From positions 1 to 31,611 of IMG/VR virus record IMGVR_UViG_3300020710_000025: DNA of 31,611 nt, one strand, 5' to 3'. This stretch comes from a virus. Below the pieces are notes generated by a model. That model made no database searches, was not told the origin of the DNA, and saw only the letters and a program-made list of their open reading frames with translations. The stretch's first letter is position 1; each line of letters starts with the position of its first letter. The position numbers and the translations under genes were made by a program. Below, piece after piece: positions 4,578-27,678 of this stretch.

Positions 4578-6386
4578 CTAAATATATAAACACTCCGCTT
4601 TTAATGTTGGAGTTGCCTGATTTGGATTTAAGGTAATATTACTTGTTCCACTATCTTGCATAATATTAAAGTAATATAAAGTTTGTGATGAAATTGTATA
4701 ATTTTTGTTACGATATAAACTGTTATTTATTGTCGCCACACCACCAGAAGTGTAAGTATGGGTATTTATATCTGGGTCAACGTCTGTGTTATTGGTTGTT
4801 GATAAAGTTGTATAAATAGAAATAGCCGTTACACTACTAGCACTAACCAATAATTGATATGATAACTGCCAAGAACCAGCTGGAACAGACATTTGAAGAC
4901 TATCAATATTTGTCCAAACATTAGATGAAGGTGCAATACCAGATGTTCCTGTCCTTTCCGTTACCTGTAAAGTCCAGTTTCCTTTATCTGCGTTAAAACC
5001 ATAAGGTGTTCTAGAAGTTGAGAAATAAACTGTTCCAAGTGTTTGGTTAGGAATCGTGTTTGAGTTACCTGTGTATAAAGTAACAGTTGTAGTTGGAGAA
5101 GAATAAGAAACTTTAGTAACTACAGCGTATTCAGTAACATTGTATGGGTTAGAAGCTTGAGTAGCTATAGCACCGTTAACAGCTGTAAGGTTATTTGCGT
5201 TAGATGTTAAATCATTAAAGTTACCATTACCTTGCCATAATCCTACAAGGTTAGATTCACTTCCAGTAAGGTTAATTGCCATGTTAGCTTGAATTTGAGC
5301 CTGAGATTGTGCTACAGACCATACACGAGCTTCTGATATGTATCCATTAAAATAATTACCACCTGGTGAAGTCGTAGCTATAGCTAAATTACCAGACTGT
5401 GTAAGTGAAGTAGCGGCTGATGCTAATTGAGAATTTGGAACCGAAACTCCATTTATGTATAATCCTCCTAGAGTTTTACCAGATACAGATGATACTGAAG
5501 CAGCAACGTGAACCCATTGATTAAGTGGAACAGATTGATAAGTGTCCCATTCTGTATAATTTCCACCTATTCCATAATAAACTGCTAATTGACCTGAGCC
5601 ACTTAGTCTCATAGCCCAAGAACCGCTTGAACCATTGTCTCTTCCAATAATCACTGCTTGTGAACCAGTAAAATTTGGAACATATATCCAAGCTTCACAA
5701 GTAAATGCAGATGTAAATGTAATACCAGTAGGTGAAACTTTGGAAGCATATTGAGAAGAAGCAGAGTTAAATGCCATGCTTTGTGTAGGTGGTGTAGTTC
5801 CTCTTAATATAGACATTTTCATTCCAGGACTTAAACTAGATGTTAAATCAGAAGCTGCAGTTACTGTAAATTCTTTATTACCATTGTTAGCTCCATAAGT
5901 TAGAGTTGTTCCTAATGCGTTCCAACCAGTAGCAAGTGTATTATTACCTCCTACAGTTAAGGTTCCACCAACTACAACATTTCCAGTTGAAGTTAAAGTA
6001 TCAGTAGTTATTCCAGTGTGAGTTCCAGTTTGTGTATGCTGAGTTAAAATTCCAGATACAGCGTCATTCCAAGTGTTTTGGTCAAATACTTGTTCAACAA
6101 CTGCACCAATAGAATGAGATTGTGCTGTAGAACTTCCAAGTCCACGAGTTAAACTGATAATAGATGAACCAGATACAATACCTTGAACATATTCTCTTTT
6201 AGATGGTGTTTTGTTTCCATTAGCATCTACTCGGTCAATTACAAGAACAACTGCAGTATCAGTAGGTAGTCCAACAACGCTAGATAAAGTAACACTAGTA
6301 TCTGTAGTTCCTACTATTAAGCTACTTGTAGAAGTTGAAAAGTTATTTGCTTGTTTTTTGAATTTGTCTGTTGCTGTTGCTGCCAT
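4578..6386 (-). CDS. LamG-domain tail fibre or receptor-binding protein
   Basis: A 602-residue Ser/Thr/Gly-rich virion protein. Residues 1-110 are a beta-rich head with the segment SKREYVQGIVSGSSIISLTRG, of a kind common in phage fibre N-termini. At about 205-400 lies a LamG/concanavalin-A-like jelly roll: FTCEAWIYV, NQWVHVAASV, LYINGVSV, GYISEARVWSVAQSQAQI and NLVGLWQG are the usual landmarks in order. The last 170 residues form another beta-rich domain. LamG folds often bind glycans, so receptor binding is the likely role (inference). The gene has its own promoter and a leader with a terminator, so its expression may be controlled separately from the genes upstream. Confidence 0.85.
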   Translation of the reverse strand: MAATATDKFKKQANNFSTSTSSLIVGTTDTSVTLSSVVGLPTDTAVVLVIDRVDANGNKTPSKREYVQGIVSGSSIISLTRGLGSSTAQSHSIGAVVEQVFDQNTWNDAVSGILTQHTQTGTHTGITTDTLTSTGNVVVGGTLTVGGNNTLATGWNALGTTLTYGANNGNKEFTVTAASDLTSSLSPGMKMSILRGTTPPTQSMAFNSASSQYASKVSPTGITFTSAFTCEAWIYVPNFTGSQAVIIGRDNGSSGSWAMRLSGSGQLAVYYGIGGNYTEWDTYQSVPLNQWVHVAASVSSVSGKTLGGLYINGVSVPNSQLASAATSLTQSGNLAIATTSPGGNYFNGYISEARVWSVAQSQAQIQANMAINLTGSESNLVGLWQGNGNFNDLTSNANNLTAVNGAIATQASNPYNVTEYAVVTKVSYSSPTTTVTLYTGNSNTIPNQTLGTVYFSTSRTPYGFNADKGNWTLQVTERTGTSGIAPSSNVWTNIDSLQMSVPAGSWQLSYQLLVSASSVTAISIYTTLSTTNNTDVDPDINTHTYTSGGVATINNSLYRNKNYTISSQTLYYFNIMQDSGTSNITLNPNQATPTLKAECLYI

Positions 6387-6400
6387 TGTATTTCCTTAAA

Positions 6401-6430
6401 TTAAAAAACACCCCTGATTTCTCAGAGGTG
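6401..6430 (-). terminator. intrinsic terminator / leader attenuator before LamG fibre gene
   Basis: On the - strand a perfect 9-bp stem CACCTCTGA/TCAGGGGTG (one G-U pair) closes a GAAA tetraloop and is followed by TTTTTT. It lies between the promoter at 6462-6473 and the start codon at 6386, so it can act on both read-through and local transcripts. A near copy is at 9221-9250. Confidence 0.92.
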
Positions 6431-6431
6431 C

Positions 6432-6445
6432 TGTATATTTACAGT
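6432..6445 (-). promoter_or_regulatory. leader hairpin with conserved loop
   Basis: The 14-nt dyad CTGTAAATATACAG lies between promoter and terminator. The equivalent leader at 9251-9264 has TCGTAAATATACGA: the GTA..TAC core is kept and the outer pairs change together, so pairing is conserved. Confidence 0.65.
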
Positions 6446-6461
6446 TAACCTTTATACGCCC

Positions 6462-6473
6462 ATTATAACACAA
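6462..6473 (-). promoter_or_regulatory. extended -10 late promoter
   Basis: On the - strand this reads TTGTGTTATAAT, a perfect -10 box with the TRTG-type extension. No good -35 box lies 17 nt further upstream. It drives the LamG fibre gene through the leader with hairpin and terminator. The same element precedes four other late genes. Confidence 0.8.
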
Positions 6474-6488
6474 ACATTATAAAATATA

Positions 6489-8483
6489 CTATTTGTATCC
6501 TGTTGGGTCGGAAGTAGGAATAAGTTTTCCTTTAATCACTATTTCAAGAACATTGTATTGAGCATTAACATCAGATGAAGTAATTGCCCATTTAAGATTA
6601 GATAGTCGTTTTTTAATCAATAAACGTTTAGTAACTGATGATTGACTGTAAGAAGATGGTGTATTTGCTGAATCTCCCATTGCAACTGAACCCATTAAAT
6701 CTGAACCTAATCCTGAATTTCCAACAACACTAGAAGTTATTTGAATGTTTTTAAGTTGCTGAATATTTTTATTTTTTTGTGTTCCAGAAACTATAAAGTT
6801 AACTGTTCCCTTTGGTCTAGCTAATTGAACATATACCTTATCAATTCTTGCCCATAAAGAATGGTCTTCGTCCCAATAAATAAGTCCTGATTCAAGGTCG
6901 GTGTTAAATGATGCTCCAAGGTCTCCTAAGAAGTTCTGGTTAAATTCTACTAACTGGTTTCCAGACATAGGTATTCCAAGAAGGTGTGGTGTTCCAGATG
7001 AATCTGCATATTCTACAAATTGTTTAACTGCTGTAGTCCAAGCTACACACCAAGCATTTCTTTCAAGGTCTAATACCCAAATCTGGTTATTAGTTGTGCT
7101 TCCGTAAGGAACTGACCAAAAGATTCTTCCGTAGTAAAAGATTCCTGCAATATTTTTAGCTGCAGTCATTGTAATGTTTTGCACATTAGGTCTAATTGAT
7201 GAGCTTATTTCACTTGTAGCAAGCACGTTTAAAATATTAGGTGCTGAACCAAGTGTTTGAAATCCTTTAATGGAAGGATAAAAAATGTTGTTAACTGATT
7301 GAACTACACCAAATGGACTGTTTGTTCCAATAGAACCTTGTGATGTGGCTGAAGGAACAGTAATACCATATTGACCTACCTGAATAGTGCTAAGAGATAC
7401 AAACCATATAGAACCTCCACCAACTGGGTCAGATGTAAATACAGTTGCTATTGATGTTCCTTGGCCAGTTCTAAAATGTTTAACAGTAATTGGCTTTTCA
7501 GAAGAGCCTGGATTTAAATCTATATAACCAGCACCTGCAAAAGGGTCAAATGAACCTGGATTATATTGAGAAGTAAAATAAACTCGATATGGATTGCCAG
7601 GGTCTCCAGTTCCCCACATTCTGTTTCCAGATAACGCAATATTTGATAAGACTGGTCCGGCAGTTGAATCAGTTATAGGATAACTACTAAATAAGTTAGG
7701 TTGAGCAAAGTTATTATCAGTCCAAGAAGTTGATGTAGTTGAATCAAGATATACTTCTTTTCCAGTTTGGTCTGAGTAATAAATGTTTACTCGGTCTGCA
7801 GTGTTAGTAGGAATAGTTAAAGTTATATAATCTTGAGTTGTTGAGTTGTTTAACCAAGATGAACGTTGCTTACTTACATTGACTGTATATTCACTACTTG
7901 CAGCTGATTCAAAACCATTCTTAATATAAGTTAGCCTGTAATAAAGCTTGTAAGTAGCAGTTGAACTTAAACTTCCACCATATGCAACAGCTGTAGGTGC
8001 AGCGGCAGTTCCAAGAGCTGAATAAGTAACAATAGTTCCAGTCGCTACATCGTAATAAGACAGCTTATCATATCCATTTGTGATATAAACTCGTGAATTT
8101 ATTTGTGTTAGCTTAGCTGTTTTACCAGTAGTCCAAGTATTTCCTGAAACAGTTGTCCAGTTTCCACCATCTACTGAAGTCTTAAGAGCACCATTATCTA
8201 TAACTAGTAGAGTGCTGGTAGTTGTTCCATCAGAGTTATATTTAATTGCAGTTCCAAGTCCATCAATAGGTCCAGTTAGAGTTTTTCCATATACCTGAGA
8301 ACCATATCGAACACGCCAGATTCCATCTTGGTCTAACATCATATTAGTAGCAGTTGTTACGGCTGTATTTGGAATTCTTGATTCGTCAGTAAGAGTTACA
8401 GTTCCACCTTTAAATTGATTAATTGTAATAGTAAATGGTTTACCATCACTACCTTTTAAATTAGGTCTTGTTAATCTTGGCAT
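6489..8483 (-). CDS. tail nozzle / DNA stabilisation-like protein
   Basis: A 664-residue beta-rich protein. The N-terminus has the layout typical of short-tail nozzle proteins (T7 gp12-like or P22 gp10-like): a FKGGTVTLTDESRIPNTAV segment, then TNMMLDQDGIWRVRYGSQVYG. Repeated strand-turn units follow (VYITNGYDKLSYYD, YRLTYIKNGFESAAS, NRMWGTGDPGNPYRVYFT) that fit a beta-propeller. The protein would close the end of the short tail and hold packaged DNA. It follows the adaptor gene by 2 nt, in the usual adaptor-then-nozzle order. The exact family cannot be fixed from the sequence alone. Confidence 0.8.
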   Translation of the reverse strand: MPRLTRPNLKGSDGKPFTITINQFKGGTVTLTDESRIPNTAVTTATNMMLDQDGIWRVRYGSQVYGKTLTGPIDGLGTAIKYNSDGTTTSTLLVIDNGALKTSVDGGNWTTVSGNTWTTGKTAKLTQINSRVYITNGYDKLSYYDVATGTIVTYSALGTAAAPTAVAYGGSLSSTATYKLYYRLTYIKNGFESAASSEYTVNVSKQRSSWLNNSTTQDYITLTIPTNTADRVNIYYSDQTGKEVYLDSTTSTSWTDNNFAQPNLFSSYPITDSTAGPVLSNIALSGNRMWGTGDPGNPYRVYFTSQYNPGSFDPFAGAGYIDLNPGSSEKPITVKHFRTGQGTSIATVFTSDPVGGGSIWFVSLSTIQVGQYGITVPSATSQGSIGTNSPFGVVQSVNNIFYPSIKGFQTLGSAPNILNVLATSEISSSIRPNVQNITMTAAKNIAGIFYYGRIFWSVPYGSTTNNQIWVLDLERNAWCVAWTTAVKQFVEYADSSGTPHLLGIPMSGNQLVEFNQNFLGDLGASFNTDLESGLIYWDEDHSLWARIDKVYVQLARPKGTVNFIVSGTQKNKNIQQLKNIQITSSVVGNSGLGSDLMGSVAMGDSANTPSSYSQSSVTKRLLIKKRLSNLKWAITSSDVNAQYNVLEIVIKGKLIPTSDPTGYK

Positions 8484-8485
8484 TA

Positions 8486-9208
8486 TTAACCTCCAAAGTA
8501 TGAACCGTCTCGGTTGAATTCAACATCATCAGGTTGTGTAGATGAGTTGATTGGAGCAGTTTCGTTAAATATCTTCATGTTCTGCATTGTTCCATCGGCA
8601 ATATTCTGATAGACCTCGTATTGATTAGTGTTTGAGTCCATTAGATGTTTTTGAGCCGCAACCCAATAAATAACATAATCAGGGTTACTCATTTCAGGAA
8701 CCCATGTTGTTTCAGTGTAAGCAGAAGGAATGGAAGCTGATTTATAATAATCGAATTGAATTGAACCACCAATACAAGTTTCGTTAGCTACAAATGGAAC
8801 AGTAAAGTTTACAGAAAATCCAGAACCTTGGTTGCCAGTAAAATAAGCTTTTCTAATTTGTGCTTTAACATATTTATCAGATTCTTCTGGTTTAACTACT
8901 TCGTATCTTATGACAGACCCTGCTGAAGTAGTAATTCTTACATATGATGATGGTAGAGTCATGTCTGTTAATCCAGTAGGATATGAACTTTGACCAACAG
9001 TTACAACAGTAGATACAGTTCCAGTTTTCCACAGTTCGTTCCAACTTATGTTTTCAGATTCCCAGTTTCCTACTGCTCTTAAAATAAGTCCGAATCTAAT
9101 TTTCCATTCATCGTCAGTTACTGCAGGTGTATTAGGGTCATTTTCATATAGTATGTGAATTGAATCTTGTATGTTTTGTAATGTTGTTGGTTGGTCTATT
9201 TGTGCCAT
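8486..9208 (-). CDS. head-tail adaptor-like protein
   Basis: A 240-residue protein with a helical N-terminal part (LQNIQDSIHILYENDPNTPAV, then WKIRFGLILRAVGNWE), a beta-rich middle, and a helical region near 175-205 (YVIYWVAAQKHLMDSNTNQYEV). This helix-beta-helix layout is typical of podovirus adaptor or tail-tube A proteins that join portal to nozzle. Its place directly before the nozzle-like gene supports this. The family call is by layout and context, not by a diagnostic motif. It has its own promoter and attenuator-like leader at 9221-9292. Confidence 0.7.
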   Translation of the reverse strand: MAQIDQPTTLQNIQDSIHILYENDPNTPAVTDDEWKIRFGLILRAVGNWESENISWNELWKTGTVSTVVTVGQSSYPTGLTDMTLPSSYVRITTSAGSVIRYEVVKPEESDKYVKAQIRKAYFTGNQGSGFSVNFTVPFVANETCIGGSIQFDYYKSASIPSAYTETTWVPEMSNPDYVIYWVAAQKHLMDSNTNQYEVYQNIADGTMQNMKIFNETAPINSSTQPDDVEFNRDGSYFGG

Positions 9209-9220
9209 ATTTGTTCCTAA

Positions 9221-9250
9221 TTAAAAACACCCCTGTTTTACCAGAGGTGT
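9221..9250 (-). terminator. intrinsic terminator / leader attenuator before adaptor gene
   Basis: On the - strand the stem ACACCTCTG/CAGGGGTGT with a GTAAAA loop is followed by TTTTT. It is placed between the promoter at 9281-9292 and the start codon at 9208, in the same arrangement as the leader at 6401-6473. Confidence 0.9.
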
Positions 9251-9264
9251 TCGTATATTTACGA
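9251..9264 (-). promoter_or_regulatory. leader hairpin, paired with the copy at 6432-6445
   Basis: The dyad TCGTAAATATACGA keeps the GTAAATATAC core of the other leader while the outer base pairs differ in a compensating way. It precedes the terminator by one base. Confidence 0.65.
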
Positions 9265-9280
9265 TTTACCTTATAGTGTG

Positions 9281-9292
9281 ATTATATCACAT
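9281..9292 (-). promoter_or_regulatory. extended -10 late promoter
   Basis: The - strand element is ATGTGATATAAT, a perfect -10 with TGTG extension. It overlaps the last codons and stop of the 1779-residue gene (stop at 9287-9289). No clear -35 box is seen. Confidence 0.75.
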
Positions 9293-12200
9293 CTTTATTC
9301 GAACTGGACTAATTTTAGATGCCTTAGCTATTCGTAGTGGTCGTTGCTTGGGCATTACATATCTTAGATGCTGATTGTGAACTTTCATTTTAATTCTGTG
9401 CTGTCTAATTCTTACTGGTTTTGTTCGTTTAATTCTGTGGGATTTTGTTATGCTTCCACCACCACCACCTGCAGATGTAAATCCATTACCTAATGAACCA
9501 TTTTGCATAAATGAATACTGTCCGTTAGCATTCTTACCTATATCATAGTTTCCAAGGTTTGATATACCTTTAAGCGTAGATTGAGCAAGGTTATCACCAT
9601 TATTAAGCAGTTGAGTTTGCGTAGCACCTGGGTAAATAGGATTCTGGTAAAGATACTTAGATAAATCTTTTGTTGTTGTAAACAAACCTGAATCTGCAAG
9701 ATATTGTTTAAGTTCTGGACTTGAGTTAATAATTTGAGCTCGAGTTGCTTTGCTTGCTGAGTCTGAACCTTTTGGCATAGAATCCAAAAGTGCTTGAACT
9801 TGTGGGGTAGGATTTGGTGCAACTTGTAATGGTAATAGTCCTTTTGCTACTCGAAGCTGATTATCGTATTGAGCAATAGCTTTGAATGTTGGCTGAAGTA
9901 CGTTTATATTTTGAACATAGAAATCTTGTTTTTGTGTTGGGTCTGTTATAGCGTCATATTGATTCATTAAATCAGTAGTTGATTGAGGAACATTTGGTGC
10001 AGTAAGTGGCGGAGTAACAGATGGATGTTGCTGGAAATAAGTATCAATAGCTTTTTGATTCCAGCCTTGATTTTGCATCCATTGAGTAAGATTTTGTACA
10101 TAGTTTTTTGCATCGTTACCAACAGCTGTTGAGTAATTTTTGAGCCAAGGGTTAGCTTGTTCTGTAAAGTATCGTTCTGGGTCACCTGTTCCCATAACTG
10201 AATAATCAAGTGCTATTTGTGCCTTTGGTTCTGATTTTGTTCCAATTATGTTTCCGTTACTATCCAATGTAAAGCTTGTACCTGAACCTGTTAAATCAAA
10301 CAATGCACTGTGCGGTCGTGTTGGGTCAAGTTGTGCAAGTTTTTGGTCGATGTAAAAAGATGGAGAAAGTCTTTGAGCACCTGTCTTTGGGTCATTTGAT
10401 AAATAATAAGAAGCTTTTTGGTCGGCAGATAACGCATTCCAATCACTTGGCACTGAGTTTCCAGAAGCGTCTTTAGTTGCAGTTGGGTGAAGTGATGTAT
10501 ATTCGGAGTAAAGTTTTGCACCTTGTGAAGCTGATACATCTTGCAAACTTGGGTCAATTTGACTAAGTTTACCGTTTTTCATAAGGTCAGCAAGTTGTGA
10601 TTGAGTATTAAAGTAATTTTGATTTTTTACATATTGAGGGTCTGTTGTATCTGTAGCACTTCGACCAATACCAGAAATGTTTATTACTGCTTCGATTGGA
10701 TTTTGCTTACCTTGTGCTGCTTGAACTATTTGATTTACTGCTATAGGTGCTGAAGCGTTTGCGACATTTCCTAGTGATTTAGCAAAATTTATACTTCCAT
10801 TGTCGTTACGAGTTATTACAGGATTTCCATAATAGTCTTTGTTAGTTATAAGTTGATTAGCAGTAGATAAAAGAGGAGCGGCGTTACCAGTTATTTCGTG
10901 TTGTAAACCAATAGTCTTTTGTCCAAGCGTCCGATTGTTACTATCAAAAAATGGAGCGACTGCACGATATGATTTTGTAATAGCAGGAGCACCCGCAAAT
11001 TTAATAACTTGGTGCTCGCCCTTATCATTTTTAAATGGTGTCGATACTTGTGGGTCGACTATTGCATTAAGCAAATTGTGAAAAAACGTTTTTGCGTCTT
11101 TTCTTTTGTTTGGGTCGAGAGCTATTGAAACAAGTGTTGGCATAGCAAAAATAGCTATTTTACCGCCAATAAGTTCTCGTGCGACTCTACCTTCTGGTCC
11201 TTTTTTAGATAAAGCTGAAATAGTTGCTCTAAATTGACCTTCGTTATAATCACTTGCAAGAATGCTTCTGCCAAGCATTTTTACTTGCGAAGGTGTAAAT
11301 GAATCAATAGCTCGATTTGCACCTCCTATAGAATCATTTAATGCTTTTGAAATTTGTCGCATTTTTACTACATCTTCTGGATTATTTATGTTTAAGTTTT
11401 TAAATTCATCGGCGGCAATAACCATTTTAACTGTCGGTATTTCTCGTAAAAACAAAGAGTCGTGAACAGCTCTAAGAGGGTTATACTTTCCTTTAAAAAG
11501 AAGAGAATTGTTAGAATCAATCGATTCATCGGCAAGAGTTAGTCCACTTATTCTAAATTTATCCATGCTTCCGTCTTTTATATACCCTTCTTTAAGGTCG
11601 TTGTAAAAACTTGAACTAAATTTAGATTGTAAAGGTTTTAAAATATCTTGCAGATTGCCATGCCTTATTTCTCGAGCAGTATGAGCAGCCATTGTAACAA
11701 CATCGTGAAAACCACCAAAAGCAAGTTTCAATCCCTTATAACCACCACCTACTTGGTCTAATAGTTTTAATACAGCTCCTTGAACTCCGTGTGCGTATTC
11801 ATAAGCTGCTCGAGAATTTAATGCATTAGCAATTTCAGGACTAGCAGTTAAGCCTTTTCCATATTTTGTATTAAGTGTTTTGTAGGTTCCATTATCTGAA
11901 CGCATAACATTACCTTTTGCAATTTTATCGCCATAAACGTTTTCTAAGCCTTTCTCATACGCTAATTTACCTAAATTGTGTGTTGCTCCAGCTTCTTTAT
12001 CTAAAGCATCCATAACGTTTGTATTAAGCGTTTGATAGCTACGAGCATTGGTATATCCTACTTGTTTGTTTCCACCACCTATTTTTATAGGTTCTTGTTT
12101 AATGTCTGTTTCTGCTTGTTGAACAAGTTGTCTAAGATAGTTCATTCGATATCCATGCTCTACACCAAGGTATTGGTCCCAAGCATCACGAAGGTCATAG

Positions 12201-14626
12201 TAGTTGCGAAGTTTTGAAACTGTATTTAAGAATTCTTCTGGTTTGATTGCAGATTTAGCAATAATTTCTACAGGTTTAGATTCAATATCTTTAACTAACG
12301 CCAAATCGTGTGGGTTTAATTCTGATACGGCATTTTTTGCAACTAAACGAGCATCGTTAAGCTGTCCGGTAACCATTTCAGCATGAAGATATGCTTGAGC
12401 GGCATCTGGAGCAATAGGAAGTTTTACTTTTCCTCGTAATGGGTTTTCTAATATAGATTGATTGCCACTTAATTTCATAATTCCGTCTACATCATGCACG
12501 GCTGTGTCCATATTGGCACCTGTTTGATTCATGTAATCGTTAAGAATTTCGTCAGTTGTTTTGCCGTTTTTAATGGATTCTAATACTTGAGCTTCTGCTT
12601 TAGGATTGCGGATACGAATAGAATCATTCTTTTTAATTTCGTTTGGTCGATAAGGCATTTGTCCTTCTGGCGTGTTGTTTAAAGATGCAAGTTCCTCATC
12701 ACTCATTTTATTTGGAGAATTTGTTATTTTAACTTGACGATATTTACCATTTGGATATTGAGATAATTCATCTTGACGTTGTTTTATACTATTGTTTATT
12801 TTGTTGTATTCATCAGATAAATAATGTTTGCCTGATTGTAAATCTTCTTCTGCTTGTTCAACTGCTTGATATCTTTTAAGTGGTTTAGATTGATTATTAA
12901 TTGCTTCCATAAGTGCATCTTCATCAGGAAATCCTAAATTTCTAGCCATATAATCAGCAGATGAACCAGTTTTTCTCTTTAAATAATTAGGTATATTTTC
13001 ATAAGCTGATGATGATATACCACCATTACTTAATATTTCGGCATTTAAATTTCGATGTGGCTTGTTTAACATCATTAATTCATCGGCAGTAGAATTGATA
13101 ATGTCACTTTTATCATTTAAAAGTTGATTTAATTGTTTATCTACAACGCCTGTTTTTGGTTTTGTTATATTAATAGGCTTTGGTGTTTCTACTTGTGGGG
13201 TTTCAACTTTTGGAGCTTGTTGTCTAAGTGTTTCTGCTGATGGGGCAGGATTTGCTTGGTTGTAAAGGTCGTCAACAGGTTGAATAGGTTCTGGTGTTCC
13301 AGGTATTTTAGCGTAGCCACCCTGAGTAATAGCATTTCGAGTGTTGTTTAATTCATCTAGTGTAGCTTGATATGCCTTAGCATTGTTTACCATTGCTGGG
13401 TTGCGTTCATCTAAGCCATTTTTAGTCATGTTATCTCGTAACTTATTAAGCGTATCTAAATGGTCATTAAGTTGTAATACTGCTGGGTGATTATCTGCAA
13501 CATTGTTAATTCCAATGCGACCAACTTGGTTTGCCATTAATTGTCTTGTTTGATTAATAATATCTGGGGTTGCATCAGCTACTTTATTGGCTGTATTTAT
13601 CAATCCATGAGTAGCGTTAGGTAATAAACCAAGAACTCCAAATGGTAAGCCTTGAACAACTCCTTTGCCTATATCAGTTGCAGCTTCATTAAAATTGTTA
13701 GCACTTTGAGCAGCTTGAGATGCTCCTTGTCCAGCACCATACAATCCAGCTACTGCTTCGCTACCAGCAAATTTTTGAGCGACTTTACCCAATCCAGATT
13801 TTTCAAGTTGAGGTAATAATGCTCTTATGCTACGTTCAGCAGCTTGGTCTATTGCTTTACCTTTACCTAATGTTAGTAAATTAATTGCAGTATTAATTGC
13901 ATTACCTGCTAAATTACGTCCTGTTCCTTCGTTAACTGTTCCATTGTTAGATGCCCAGTTAGTTAGACCTCCAAGTGGTCCACCACCAATTGCTTGTTGT
14001 GATGTTAGATTCTGATTAGTAAGTCCATTAACTATATTTGTAGCAACTCCAGCACCAGTATTTACAAAAGCTTTGGCAGAAGGTGTTAATCCTACGTCTT
14101 GACTAAGTCCACCTAAATTAGTTGCAAAGTTTTTTCCACCAAGGTTAGCATTGTTATTGCCTATAGCATTACGAGCATTATTAGCGGCTTGTTGGTTTCC
14201 AGTAAGGTTAGCTACACCAAGTGAACCTAAGTCACCTATGTCTTTCAAGTCAGATACAGCTCCGTTACCAGCTTGATTAAGTTGATGTAAAATAGGGTTA
14301 AAGAAATTGTTATGAACTGGTTGAAATTGTGGTGTTGATAGATTTGGTGTAGGTGATGGATTACCTATTTTAATTCCTGGCACATTTAGAGTGCCTAGGT
14401 TGCCTCCAATATTTGTAGATGAGTTAGGATTCAAAGTTGGTGTTAAATTCAATCCTGGAGCACCCATAGGGTTTCCTGGCATAGATGTTGGTGTTGGCTT
14501 AAATCCTAATATAGGTAAATTTTGAGCATTTTGAACAGGAGGTGATGATTGACCACCGTTATTGTTGCCTTCAATATCGTCAACTATTTTTTTACCGAAG
14601 TTTACTATGTTGTCCCAGATGGACAT
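9287..14626 (-). CDS. giant putative internal virion / ejection protein, 1779 aa
   Basis: This is the largest gene in the window. I recognise no enzyme motif in it. The first 130 residues are Asn/Pro/Gly-rich, with LTPTLNPNSSTNIGG (61-75), shared with the next gene upstream. Residues about 150-340 are Ala/Gly-rich with hydrophobic helices (GVVQGLPFGVLGLLP), which could enter membranes. Coiled-coil and Asn/Gln-rich stretches follow up to about 660, then a long, mostly helical body. The end is a glycine run and then a strongly basic tail with repeated RIK/RIR-type motifs. Position between fibre/coiled-coil genes and the adaptor, plus size, fits an internal virion protein ejected with the DNA. 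Function is inferred from context only. Confidence 0.75.
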   Translation of the reverse strand: MSIWDNIVNFGKKIVDDIEGNNNGGQSSPPVQNAQNLPILGFKPTPTSMPGNPMGAPGLNLTPTLNPNSSTNIGGNLGTLNVPGIKIGNPSPTPNLSTPQFQPVHNNFFNPILHQLNQAGNGAVSDLKDIGDLGSLGVANLTGNQQAANNARNAIGNNNANLGGKNFATNLGGLSQDVGLTPSAKAFVNTGAGVATNIVNGLTNQNLTSQQAIGGGPLGGLTNWASNNGTVNEGTGRNLAGNAINTAINLLTLGKGKAIDQAAERSIRALLPQLEKSGLGKVAQKFAGSEAVAGLYGAGQGASQAAQSANNFNEAATDIGKGVVQGLPFGVLGLLPNATHGLINTANKVADATPDIINQTRQLMANQVGRIGINNVADNHPAVLQLNDHLDTLNKLRDNMTKNGLDERNPAMVNNAKAYQATLDELNNTRNAITQGGYAKIPGTPEPIQPVDDLYNQANPAPSAETLRQQAPKVETPQVETPKPINITKPKTGVVDKQLNQLLNDKSDIINSTADELMMLNKPHRNLNAEILSNGGISSSAYENIPNYLKRKTGSSADYMARNLGFPDEDALMEAINNQSKPLKRYQAVEQAEEDLQSGKHYLSDEYNKINNSIKQRQDELSQYPNGKYRQVKITNSPNKMSDEELASLNNTPEGQMPYRPNEIKKNDSIRIRNPKAEAQVLESIKNGKTTDEILNDYMNQTGANMDTAVHDVDGIMKLSGNQSILENPLRGKVKLPIAPDAAQAYLHAEMVTGQLNDARLVAKNAVSELNPHDLALVKDIESKPVEIIAKSAIKPEEFLNTVSKLRNYYDLRDAWDQYLGVEHGYRMNYLRQLVQQAETDIKQEPIKIGGGNKQVGYTNARSYQTLNTNVMDALDKEAGATHNLGKLAYEKGLENVYGDKIAKGNVMRSDNGTYKTLNTKYGKGLTASPEIANALNSRAAYEYAHGVQGAVLKLLDQVGGGYKGLKLAFGGFHDVVTMAAHTAREIRHGNLQDILKPLQSKFSSSFYNDLKEGYIKDGSMDKFRISGLTLADESIDSNNSLLFKGKYNPLRAVHDSLFLREIPTVKMVIAADEFKNLNINNPEDVVKMRQISKALNDSIGGANRAIDSFTPSQVKMLGRSILASDYNEGQFRATISALSKKGPEGRVARELIGGKIAIFAMPTLVSIALDPNKRKDAKTFFHNLLNAIVDPQVSTPFKNDKGEHQVIKFAGAPAITKSYRAVAPFFDSNNRTLGQKTIGLQHEITGNAAPLLSTANQLITNKDYYGNPVITRNDNGSINFAKSLGNVANASAPIAVNQIVQAAQGKQNPIEAVINISGIGRSATDTTDPQYVKNQNYFNTQSQLADLMKNGKLSQIDPSLQDVSASQGAKLYSEYTSLHPTATKDASGNSVPSDWNALSADQKASYYLSNDPKTGAQRLSPSFYIDQKLAQLDPTRPHSALFDLTGSGTSFTLDSNGNIIGTKSEPKAQIALDYSVMGTGDPERYFTEQANPWLKNYSTAVGNDAKNYVQNLTQWMQNQGWNQKAIDTYFQQHPSVTPPLTAPNVPQSTTDLMNQYDAITDPTQKQDFYVQNINVLQPTFKAIAQYDNQLRVAKGLLPLQVAPNPTPQVQALLDSMPKGSDSASKATRAQIINSSPELKQYLADSGLFTTTKDLSKYLYQNPIYPGATQTQLLNNGDNLAQSTLKGISNLGNYDIGKNANGQYSFMQNGSLGNGFTSAGGGGGSITKSHRIKRTKPVRIRQHRIKMKVHNQHLRYVMPKQRPLRIAKASKISPVRIKM

Positions 14627-15921: not shown

Positions 15922-15933
15922 ATTATAACACAA
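15922..15933 (-). promoter_or_regulatory. extended -10 late promoter
   Basis: The - strand reads TTGTGTTATAAT, the same 12 bases as at 6462-6473. It directly abuts the stop codon of the repeat-fibre gene (15934-15936). A weak -35-like TTTATC lies 17 nt upstream of the -10 box. Confidence 0.8.
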
Positions 15934-20252: not shown

Positions 20253-21152
20253 TTAGTAAGCTGAACCACTTTCGATTCGAACCATAAAGTTGTTGTTCAA
20301 GATAACACTCTTGAATCCAACTTTCCAACCAAGTGTTCGCTTCTGATGTAATGGGTCAGAAACTGAACCTGGACCTTCGATGTAAGTCTGAAGATTTTGT
20401 AGGTTAGTAATTGCGTAAGCGTTTCGTCCAATCAAGTAACTTGTGTGAACAGTTACTGTTGAAGTAATAGTTGCTATTACGTTGCTTCTTCTTACTTCAA
20501 CGCCATACCAAGTTCCGAGAACAGCACCCTCGTATTGAGGAGCTGGAGCGAAGTTTGTTACTGCACGGAATTCTGAATCTGCAAGTATGTCCATAGCTAC
20601 AGATGGGTCAACGAATAATACGAAGTTACCACTGTCTAATGGACGAGCACCGTTAATTTGTAATGTTTTTACAGCTTTTCGGAGTTCAGTTGTAGTAACT
20701 ACGTCTGTTGCTGCTACAGCTGTTCGAGCTGCTTTACCGTTTGCGTATTGAACAGTTGTTCCTGCTACTAATACGCTGTTTATTGTTGTTTCTATTGTTT
20801 CTGTTGCTTGTTGTCCTAGTAAGTAAAGAGTCTCTTCTGCAAGAGGGTGTTTTACTGTTAATTCTGCTAGGTCAGTTAGAGTTACATACGCACCCCATTG
20901 GTCAACTACTGCTGTTACTGCAGAGTTTGTTATCTGAGTATCAGTTGGAGCTGTTCCTTCAGAAAGAACTGAACCAGGAACTGAAAGTCGTGAGTATTGT
21001 GTGAAGCTGATTGTCTTAGAAGAATTGCTAGGAATGTCTTCTACGTAAGCTGCTGTCTGTAATACTGCGTCTTTGTAGTTAATGTCCAAAAGTCTCTTAC
21101 TGAAGTAAGTCTGGAGGTCGGATGAAACATTTGTTGCTGCTGTTGCTGCCAT
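20253..21152 (-). CDS. major capsid protein, N4-gp56 family
   Basis: A 299-residue HK97-fold major capsid protein of the N4-gp56 type. The N-terminal TNVSSDLQTYFSKRLLD, the KTISFTQYSRL segment, LSEGTAPTDTQITNSAVTAVVDQWGAYVTLTDLAELT, and the LLGQQATETIETTINSVL helix are all characteristic of the family. The C-terminal half has the usual GTWYGVEVRRSNV and YLIGRNAYAI strands. It builds the icosahedral shell. Length is within the lower part of the family range, and no separate N-terminal scaffold domain is fused to it. It follows the scaffold gene by 27 nt. Confidence 0.92.
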   Translation of the reverse strand: MAATAATNVSSDLQTYFSKRLLDINYKDAVLQTAAYVEDIPSNSSKTISFTQYSRLSVPGSVLSEGTAPTDTQITNSAVTAVVDQWGAYVTLTDLAELTVKHPLAEETLYLLGQQATETIETTINSVLVAGTTVQYANGKAARTAVAATDVVTTTELRKAVKTLQINGARPLDSGNFVLFVDPSVAMDILADSEFRAVTNFAPAPQYEGAVLGTWYGVEVRRSNVIATITSTVTVHTSYLIGRNAYAITNLQNLQTYIEGPGSVSDPLHQKRTLGWKVGFKSVILNNNFMVRIESGSAY

Positions 21153-25771: not shown

Positions 25772-26238
25772 TTAGTAAACTCCATCTTTAGTTCCACTGC
25801 ATCTTTCTGAATTACTTTAGCTGTTAAACTAGAAAACGATTCAGCAAGGGTTTCAACAGTGAATCCGTTCTTATGAAACTCACCATCGTGGTCTTGTATT
25901 CCATAAATCGTTTTAATCCAGAAATCATTGCCAGGTTCTTGTAAATACATACGAATTGCATAACCTAGGTCTGGACATATCAATGTCATCTTGCCACCTT
26001 TTTTAAGAACTCTTGCCCAATCTTTACTGATTGATTCCCATTCATTACGAGTAAAGTGTTCTACAACATGTATAGCAAGTATCTCATCTACTGATTTATC
26101 ATCGTATGGTAATCCTGTGCGTATATCGTGATTAAGATATTCAGGTGAGTTGCTGTCTAGATTCTGAGGTGCAAAGAAGTCTATGTTTGTATAGCCTGGT
26201 AATAGTCTATTGCCGCATCCAAGGTGTAATTTAATCAT
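25768..26238 (-). CDS. SAM-dependent methyltransferase (class I, type 11-like)
   Basis: A 156-residue class I methyltransferase. Motif I is LHLGCGN (residues 4-10), with an acidic residue ending strand 2 in NIDFF and a post-motif HVVEHF. The core is small, and no substrate-recognition domain is visible, so the substrate cannot be told; small molecules and glycans are common for this type. It overlaps the terminase nuclease gene by 4 nt and the glycosyltransferase by 4 nt, so the two modification enzymes are made together and may act on the same product (inference). Confidence 0.87.
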   Translation of the reverse strand: MIKLHLGCGNRLLPGYTNIDFFAPQNLDSNSPEYLNHDIRTGLPYDDKSVDEILAIHVVEHFTRNEWESISKDWARVLKKGGKMTLICPDLGYAIRMYLQEPGNDFWIKTIYGIQDHDGEFHKNGFTVETLAESFSSLTAKVIQKDAVELKMEFTK

Positions 26239-26891
26239 ATCTCGTTCCAGATGTTGTTAATGTAGTTATCCGTAGGTAAGTAAACATTCTTAGAATTGAT
26301 TGGTGGATTCTCGGTCTGATACATCTGCCATGCTCCGGCAAGACTCATGATTAAGTCGTCATGTGCTCCAGATTCAGCTTGAGCCCTCCATGAACTAGAT
26401 GTTCTAACCTGAACAAATGAGAACATTTCGTTGACTGTTGGTCGGTCGTATATCTTAATAACTCTGTTGTCTATAGCGTCTTTGAGCATTGATAGCATGA
26501 TTGGTCGTGTTGCTGAGCTAGTGGTATATCCAAGCTTTGGTGTATCGTCTACCTTATCAACTGAACCTAGATTCTTCTTTTCCTGATAAATAATGTATTT
26601 GCCGTTTCTGTTAAGTGCAGCAAGTCGTTCTAATTCTGCTACTCCACCATTGTTTCGTTCATAAGCTACTACTGGTGGAATGCCTGTTATATCTGATATT
26701 CGTTCTAGTTCGTGATGAAGAACTGGTGTCATCTCGCTACTTAGTGATTTGGAATGATATACAAGTGGAACATCTATCTTGGTCTTAGACATAAACTGTG
26801 CTGCTGAGTAGTCTTCACCACCCCACGATGTATCTGCAAACACTAATACAAATTCGCCTGGCATGAACTGTCTATATCGTCTAAAACTCAT
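26235..26891 (-). CDS. terL: terminase large subunit, nuclease domain (separate gene)
   Basis: A 218-residue protein matching the C-terminal RNase H-like nuclease half of large terminases, which cuts concatemeric phage DNA. Metal-site acids are visible as FADTSWGGEDYSA (Asp20, Asp27), then AYERNNGG (Glu78), and HDDLIMSLA (Asp178, Asp179). The ATPase half is encoded by the gene before it in another frame; the two overlap by 11 nt. The start has its own ribosome binding site (AGAAAGG, six bases before ATG), which favours a real separate protein over a sequencing error. The two products presumably work as one motor. Confidence 0.88.
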   Translation of the reverse strand: MSFRRYRQFMPGEFVLVFADTSWGGEDYSAAQFMSKTKIDVPLVYHSKSLSSEMTPVLHHELERISDITGIPPVVAYERNNGGVAELERLAALNRNGKYIIYQEKKNLGSVDKVDDTPKLGYTTSSATRPIMLSMLKDAIDNRVIKIYDRPTVNEMFSFVQVRTSSSWRAQAESGAHDDLIMSLAGAWQMYQTENPPINSKNVYLPTDNYINNIWNEI

Positions 26892-27678
26892 TGAGTGCCT
26901 TTCTGGCGTTGTCTAGATACCATTGCATTGCGTCTTGGTCAAAATAACTCTGTCCAGATAAGATAAACGCTATTTCTGGTGTGTCTGGGTATTCCTGATT
27001 GAACAATCTATCTCCAAGTTCCTTTTGTTTCTGCTTGAGAATATCTTCGCCGTAGAAATCTGATGCCTTAAAAAATAACGCTTGGAATGCTGTCTGGCCA
27101 TTTACTGAATCGTCCCATAGAGTTTTGAACTGGTTGTATCCGTTGGCTGTAGTTTCTATAACTAGTTTTCCATCTGGAACAACTGCCTGTGCTGCACCTG
27201 CTAGTAAGTTCTGTAGATTAGGATAAAACGCTGCTTCTGATAAGTGTAGGTTGGTAATTGTTCTTGACCGACCAAAATCTTGTTCCTGAGCTGTTCCTAT
27301 GGTGTAGGTTGCGTTGTTGGCTGCATTGACTAACTGATACTTGGAATTGTATTTTAACGGCACCTGAACGCCTGTAGAACGCTCAAACGATTGAATGTAG
27401 TGTTTCACTCTGCTTAATAATGCTATGGCGTTATCACTTTTGTCTGCTACTACTACTGAGTTTGAATTTTCTTTAAGTAAGAAGTCTGCTGTGAATACTG
27501 CTAGAATAAATGAACTAAATCCCTGTTGTCTAGCTTTAAGAATAATATCTTTATGACTGCTCTTATCCACATATGCTAATTGTATATCGTTTAGCTTAAA
27601 TGGAATCTCATTAGAACTCTTATCTATAATCGTTAGGTTATCTTCTATAAACGCTTTGTAGTTTTTATATACGCTCAT
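26881..27678 (-). CDS. terL: terminase large subunit, ATPase domain (separate gene)
   Basis: A 265-residue packaging ATPase domain. The Walker A-like motif is KARQQGFSS (residues 48-56), in the KARQxG form common in phage terminases. The Walker B and catalytic Glu region is TNLHLSEAAF (Glu148), and GTAQEQDFGRSR lies before it. The protein stops after QWYLDNARKALNEF, about where the linker to the nuclease domain begins in usual terminases of 430-600 residues. Together the two genes make 483 residues, so little or nothing is missing. It overlaps terS by 4 nt. Confidence 0.9.
   Translation of the reverse strand: MSVYKNYKAFIEDNLTIIDKSSNEIPFKLNDIQLAYVDKSSHKDIILKARQQGFSSFILAVFTADFLLKENSNSVVVADKSDNAIALLSRVKHYIQSFERSTGVQVPLKYNSKYQLVNAANNATYTIGTAQEQDFGRSRTITNLHLSEAAFYPNLQNLLAGAAQAVVPDGKLVIETTANGYNQFKTLWDDSVNGQTAFQALFFKASDFYGEDILKQKQKELGDRLFNQEYPDTPEIAFILSGQSYFDQDAMQWYLDNARKALNEF

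Follow-up and report, generated by a model that had tools for sequence, protein, structure and literature searches.

In the 31,611-nt viral DNA analysed here (the window; positions 1 to 31,611 of IMG/VR virus record IMGVR_UViG_3300020710_000025), the genes for an adaptor-like protein and a LamG fibre are each preceded by a very short leader. We consider each leader to be probably a promoter-proximal transcription attenuator, present in multiple copies, that would work like the ANTAR and LicT leaders while being a member of neither class; we put the probability of this reading at roughly 0.6. Read from the sequence, the anatomy matches an attenuator in which the antiterminator is predicted to form first and to need holding by something if termination is to be avoided.

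Both leaders are on the minus strand, leader B at 9291-9209, ahead of the adaptor-like gene (8486..9208, minus strand; 240 aa), and leader C at 6472-6387, ahead of the LamG fibre gene (4578..6386, minus strand; 602 aa; PF13385, E 1.5e-25). A 664-aa tail protein with a homologue in all relatives compared is encoded between them (6489..8483, minus strand). The two leaders are 78% identical over ~80 nt (E 1e-10), and no third match to them was found in the whole 31.6-kb record. In each, a TGTGnTATAAT promoter is followed after ~30 nt by an intrinsic terminator, and a 5-bp hairpin lies between the two. Leader B reads, from 9291 to 9206, TGTGATATAAT..TATAAGG..TCGTA-AATA-TACGA..ACACCTCTG/CAGGGGTGT-TTTTT..ATG, with the extended -10 promoter TGTGATATAAT at 9281..9291, an RNA start predicted near 9274 from spacing, the upper hairpin TCGTA-AATA-TACGA at 9251..9264 and the terminator (ACACCTCTG-GTAAAA-CAGGGGTGT plus the T run) at 9223..9250, all on the minus strand. 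Leader C reads, from 6472 to 6384, TGTGTTATAAT..TATAAAGG..CTGTA-AATA-TACAG..GCACCTCTGA/TCAGGGGTGT-TTTTTT..ATG, with its extended -10 promoter TGTGTTATAAT at 6462..6472, an RNA start likewise predicted from spacing near 6455, its upper hairpin at 6431..6444 and its terminator at 6403..6431, again on the minus strand. The predicted fold energies of the terminators are -14.2 (B) and -16.1 (C) kcal/mol, and the U tract stands 14 nt (leader B, adaptor) or 16 nt (leader C, fibre) from the start codon. The first-pass annotation had already described this duplicated promoter-hairpin-terminator arrangement, a terminator ending about 15 nt ahead of the start codon, and outer hairpin pairs that differ between the copies and still pair; all of this was borne out, the outer pairs being T-A and C-G in one copy and C-G and T-A in the other, a compensatory swap.

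New relative to that annotation is a role for its "TATAAGG-like segment", which by complementarity supplies the 5' arm of a lower helix, the second in the leader. In both leaders, AGGT of this segment (minus strand, 9268..9271 in B and 6448..6451 in C) is complementary to ACCT within the terminator 5' arm (minus strand, 9245..9248 in B and 6426..6429 in C). The antiterminator, to which the lower stem belongs, and the terminator are predicted to be mutually exclusive, as these bases are common to both.

The weight of the observation comes from the repetition of the leaders and from the relatives that carry them, not from single promoter scores. Counting near-identical contigs once, we found the unit 22 times among uncultured phages belonging to 8 lineages. 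The junctions that carry it are homologous and precede the adaptor, the fibre, a gene of 380-430 aa or, once, the portal. The 664-aa protein used as a query led to contigs L019 and L020 (54-56% identical), which have three leaders each, ahead of the adaptor, the fibre and the gene preceding a giant protein, and the fibre N-terminus led to 18 further contigs, in which units were recognised by terminator scan, junction reading and whole-contig reading. The promoter-then-terminator order was thereby also seen in L096 (3 copies), L101 with L099/L102 (3), L105 (2), L097/L098 and L106/L109/L112, while L100 carries the unit ahead of the portal and the adaptor and also at the junction termed site A, which in L019 and L020 lies ahead of the gene preceding the giant protein. 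At site A, the window has a lone third TGTGTTATAAT promoter (15922..15932, minus strand; leader ~200 nt) without a terminator, and L019, L020, L096 and L101 have the full unit; the L100 copy there was spotted last, via its promoter score, after the model was set, and fits the same kind. The flanking proteins are 31-55% identical in the 664-aa family and 19-37% in the adaptor family, and the junction gaps are short, ~80-130 nt. L103, L104 and L095 are without the unit at their adaptor and fibre junctions.

Since the lineages were reached by homology to the window phage, the unit can be called widespread within that group only. The adaptor alone, used as a query, found no relative. Genome contigs contained nothing related to the 664-aa protein; two capsid relatives there, one in an Acidobacteria and one in a Vampirovibrionales metagenome-assembled genome, came without the 664-aa family. 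GenBank phages yielded no relative of the fibre N-terminus or of the giant protein, and for the 664-aa family gave only weak partial matches to the L101 member, in five records. A search of viral contigs for the exact DNA pattern GTAAATATAC..CACCTCTG returned only a chance match in a GC-rich contig, and the pattern TATAATATARGTAATAC matched 63 stretches, with the leader in the L019 and L020 contigs only.

Absence of conserved pairing in relatives was the outcome that the first-pass annotation had named as counting against its proposal of attenuation or antitermination; the relatives instead retain promoter, hairpin and terminator with compensatory stem changes, which, together with a helix that excludes the terminator, leaves that architecture well supported. 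Because MAFFT alignments shifted the loops out of register, stems were counted by explicit arms. In a first set of 8 copies (window, L019 and L020), the upper stems are TCGT/ACGA, CTGT/ACAG, TACT/AGTA and CTAT/ATAG and the lower stems AGGT/ACCT, GGC/GCC, GCC/GGC and GCTT/AAGC, so that pairing is intact in 56/56 cells across both stems, each of which shows several types of pair (arm-permutation joint P 1e-4). In an independent second set (L096 and L101), the five-base stems pair in 30/30 (P 0.003). These stem P values serve as guides, as related sequences are not independent. Furthermore, a lower stem joining the RNA 5' end to the base of the terminator 5' arm is present in 16/17 copies, where shuffling the letters of the flank gives 9 (P 0.0003), and it persists in 10/11 copies against 5.5 expected after removal of near-duplicates (P 0.0013). 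The geometry of the lower stem was first recognised in the copies tested, and the shuffles were given equal freedom; L100 site A came later. In most copies, the lower stem shares 1-4 nt with the terminator arm, and an internal loop of 3 nt by 2 nt is present in 11/17. When truncated transcripts were folded, the antiterminator appeared first and the terminator later in 8/8 first-set copies. Five of these favour the terminator by 1.3-2.9 kcal/mol, and for L020C and both window copies the margin is 5.0-8.6 kcal/mol; among second-set copies, the antiterminator costs 4.0-6.8 kcal/mol where the fold competes. L019 and L020, and these alone, have an extra 5' hairpin ahead of the antiterminator; the window RNA is predicted to begin at the antiterminator arm.

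The promoters and the spacing of the genes were then considered together. Each window promoter is borderline against random positions of this AT-rich record (p ~0.06 each). Across lineages, the promoters 5' of the terminators outscore positions drawn at random from their own contigs (combined P 2e-7), several copies having a near-perfect sigma70 promoter, TTGACA-17-TATAAT. Promoters are weaker at junctions counted as terminator-free than at junctions with a terminator (P 1.5e-4). The former group wrongly included L100 site A, whose promoter is good and which proved on inspection to have a terminator, so that the true contrast is sharper than this value. The distance from U tract to start codon is 0-24 nt in most copies and up to ~50 in a few. 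As tightly spaced genes leave no space for a second promoter, RNA over the gene start has passed the terminator, so that partial or conditional read-through is required, assuming that this DNA does give rise to expression of these genes. At site A of L105, a small open reading frame (ORF) lies between U tract and gene. At site A of L019 (2935-2990) and L020 (3380-3420), an extra hairpin 3' of the terminator covers the likely Shine-Dalgarno sequence. At L096 7133, L101 7175 and, on the minus strand of L128, the L100-phage portal, the start codon is directly on the U tract, with no Shine-Dalgarno sequence between.

Under the attenuator reading, host RNA polymerase would initiate at the sigma70-type promoter, and the first ~30 nt of RNA would fold into the antiterminator hairpin, whose base would occupy 1-4 nt of the terminator 5' arm, thereby leaving the terminator short and parted from its U tract, as in the logic of ANTAR and LicT leaders (PMC3369936). 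As further RNA emerges, the usually more stable terminator would displace the antiterminator, so that the default would be to stop, leaving a short leader RNA of ~50 nt in the window and up to ~80 in relatives. A factor that is produced or becomes accessible late in infection, for which a phage RNA-binding protein that recognises the hairpin and internal loop is the likeliest candidate, would hold the antiterminator, and the polymerase would then proceed into the adaptor, fibre and related genes.

Several observations weigh against this reading. The window terminators are favoured by 7.1-8.6 kcal/mol, which is large for any factor to overcome; forcing the lower stem in L101C cost nothing, as the fold does not compete there; L106/L109/L112 have at most a very weak upper hairpin; and L097B has no lower stem. 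The helix energies are themselves estimates of a nearest-neighbour model. As for the factor, no ANTAR (PF03861) or CAT_RBD (PF03123) protein was found in the 11 records, which are fragments, and the control genomes of the ANTAR search gave matches only below the cut-off. Nor did a brief search among small basic proteins turn up a convincing candidate.

The chief rival, which we regard as a serious possibility though clearly the less probable one, is a fixed partial termination that needs no factor, in which competition between the helices would set a constant read-through and keep low-copy tail parts scarce relative to the capsid. It would account for the variation of energies and loops among lineages and for the failure to find an ANTAR or CAT_RBD factor in the fragmentary records. 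It also suits the genes behind the units, which are inferred to encode low-copy tail parts, and the major capsid gene (20253-21152), which has no such unit upstream in the window. A weak promoter, however, would be the simpler route to low expression, yet near-perfect promoters occur in several copies; the L100 unit precedes the portal; and an alternative helix kept by compensatory change suggests that something reads it.

We consider it improbable that the leaders instead resemble put or nut sites, at which the hairpin would load the polymerase with RNA or an N-like protein, so that the modified enzyme would pass this and later terminators. The lambda nut site consists of boxA and a short hairpin, boxB, recognised by N acting with Nus factors, and the second-set leaders, these only, do have a boxA-like UCUUUA ahead of the hairpin; this reading of the motif was set aside because UCU fits the pairing arm better, with AGCU where the partner is GGCU. 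In L019 and L020, two tandem hairpins directly follow the promoter, and HK022 put is composed of two stem-loops, ~70 nt, with putL just 3' of its promoter (PMC9378689); the window leaders, however, have one hairpin, not two. Moreover, each unit has its own terminator, which would be unneeded if the modification were processive.

Still less credit is due to the possibility that the units are small-RNA genes, whose promoter-terminator pair would yield a short, stable, trans-acting RNA and whose place ahead of genes would be incidental. A discrete RNA of ~50-80 nt with hairpin and terminator is indeed predicted, and copies within a genome are more alike (mean 73%) than copies between genomes (67%). 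Against this, the place directly ahead of homologous genes has been kept over deep divergence, and tightly spaced genes leave no fit for another promoter. Rfam, moreover, returned no family at the gathering threshold for the whole window, and the three leaders alone gave chance-level matches below gathering (E 0.15 or worse). Finally, a plain boundary, with the upstream gene's terminator and the next gene's promoter in accidentally reversed order, would suit the short junctions, but is scarcely credible, since the promoter-then-terminator order is identical in every copy of the 8 lineages, pairing is conserved along with it, and the promoter would be useless to the next gene.

The occurrence of diverged copies at the same junctions in distant relatives suggests an unrecognised phage control of the amount or timing of tail parts. 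We tentatively propose, at somewhat less than even odds, that 2-3 cis-acting attenuators per genome time or balance tail assembly and all answer to one phage-encoded RNA-binding factor, their pairing arms having diverged between lineages while the fold was kept. In the known cases of phage antitermination (N, Q, put and P7), the polymerase is modified and distant terminators are then passed; local attenuators repeated at each tail-gene junction would differ from these in design. If true, this would reveal how, in uncultured hosts, phages fix the quantity of their tail parts or the time at which these are made; it also supplies a testable RNA fold, 22 copies from which a covariance model can be built and, as an object of search, the factor that would read the hairpin.

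Other features of the window were also noted. The large terminase matches fall on two separate minus-strand genes, an ATPase-side gene at 26881-27678 (phrog_2, phrog_26724) and a second part at 26235-26891 (phrog_24361), and L089 has two ORFs (607-1410 and 1407-2036) similar in size and order to this split terminase. An extended -10 promoter also precedes the portal gene (window 24606, minus strand; L004 5060; L089 3249), together with a short, structured leader in which ATGCTAGGTCAACCAACGCA is common to the window and L004, without a terminator; the portal of L100 has the full terminator unit. The giant protein (1171-1779 aa) is encoded at 9287-14626 on the minus strand of the window, at 3534-7049 in L096 and at 2922-7103 in L101, and its C-terminal tail is rich in lysine and arginine in several relatives.

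Among known systems, the lambda late promoter that Q serves also presents a phage promoter, a short leader, a terminator and then needed genes, which the phage units resemble; they differ from the Q and N systems in numbering three per genome rather than serving one long operon. A lambda-type Q site has a Q-binding element in the promoter and a -10-like pause element after the start; inspection by eye brought out no conserved sigma-pause element in the phage units, the TATAAG-like stretch of the window was not seen on reading L019 and L020, and this interpretation was set aside. Neither an N-like nor a Q-like gene was identified. In the conAn system of pLS20, several internal terminators of a long conjugation operon must be passed for expression (PMC8955417), whereas the phage units have their own promoter and pairing arm at each junction. 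HK022 putL and putR are likewise stem-loops in nascent phage RNA, putL being promoter-proximal (PMC9378689), but they are two long stem-loops whose RNA binds polymerase and which act on distant terminators, unlike the phage unit, whose terminator lies directly against the hairpin and has bases in common with it, and which in the window has a single 5-bp hairpin. The RAT elements of BglG, SacY and LicT are closer, since their antiterminator stem has an asymmetric internal loop and excludes the terminator (PMC3369936, PMC9981650); RAT, however, has two internal loops to the one (mostly 3x2) of the phage units, which do not serve sugar genes. The ANTAR leaders (eut, nas and ami) share a leader hairpin 5' of the terminator that overlaps its proximal stem, so that holding it shortens the terminator, and, as in eut, several copies per gene cluster (PMC3369936). 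The overlap of lower stem and terminator arm in most phage copies agrees with that of the ANTAR stem-loop P2, but the phage units lie on structural genes, have a very short leader and are without a hairpin pair, P1 and P2, whose loops both carry A1 and G4, their loops being AATA, AAAGA, AAGAA, AAGAGYG and others, with one hairpin in the window. What the phage units have in common with intrinsic-terminator attenuators is, as judged from sequence and covariation only, an exclusive antiterminator and terminator placed between promoter and gene.
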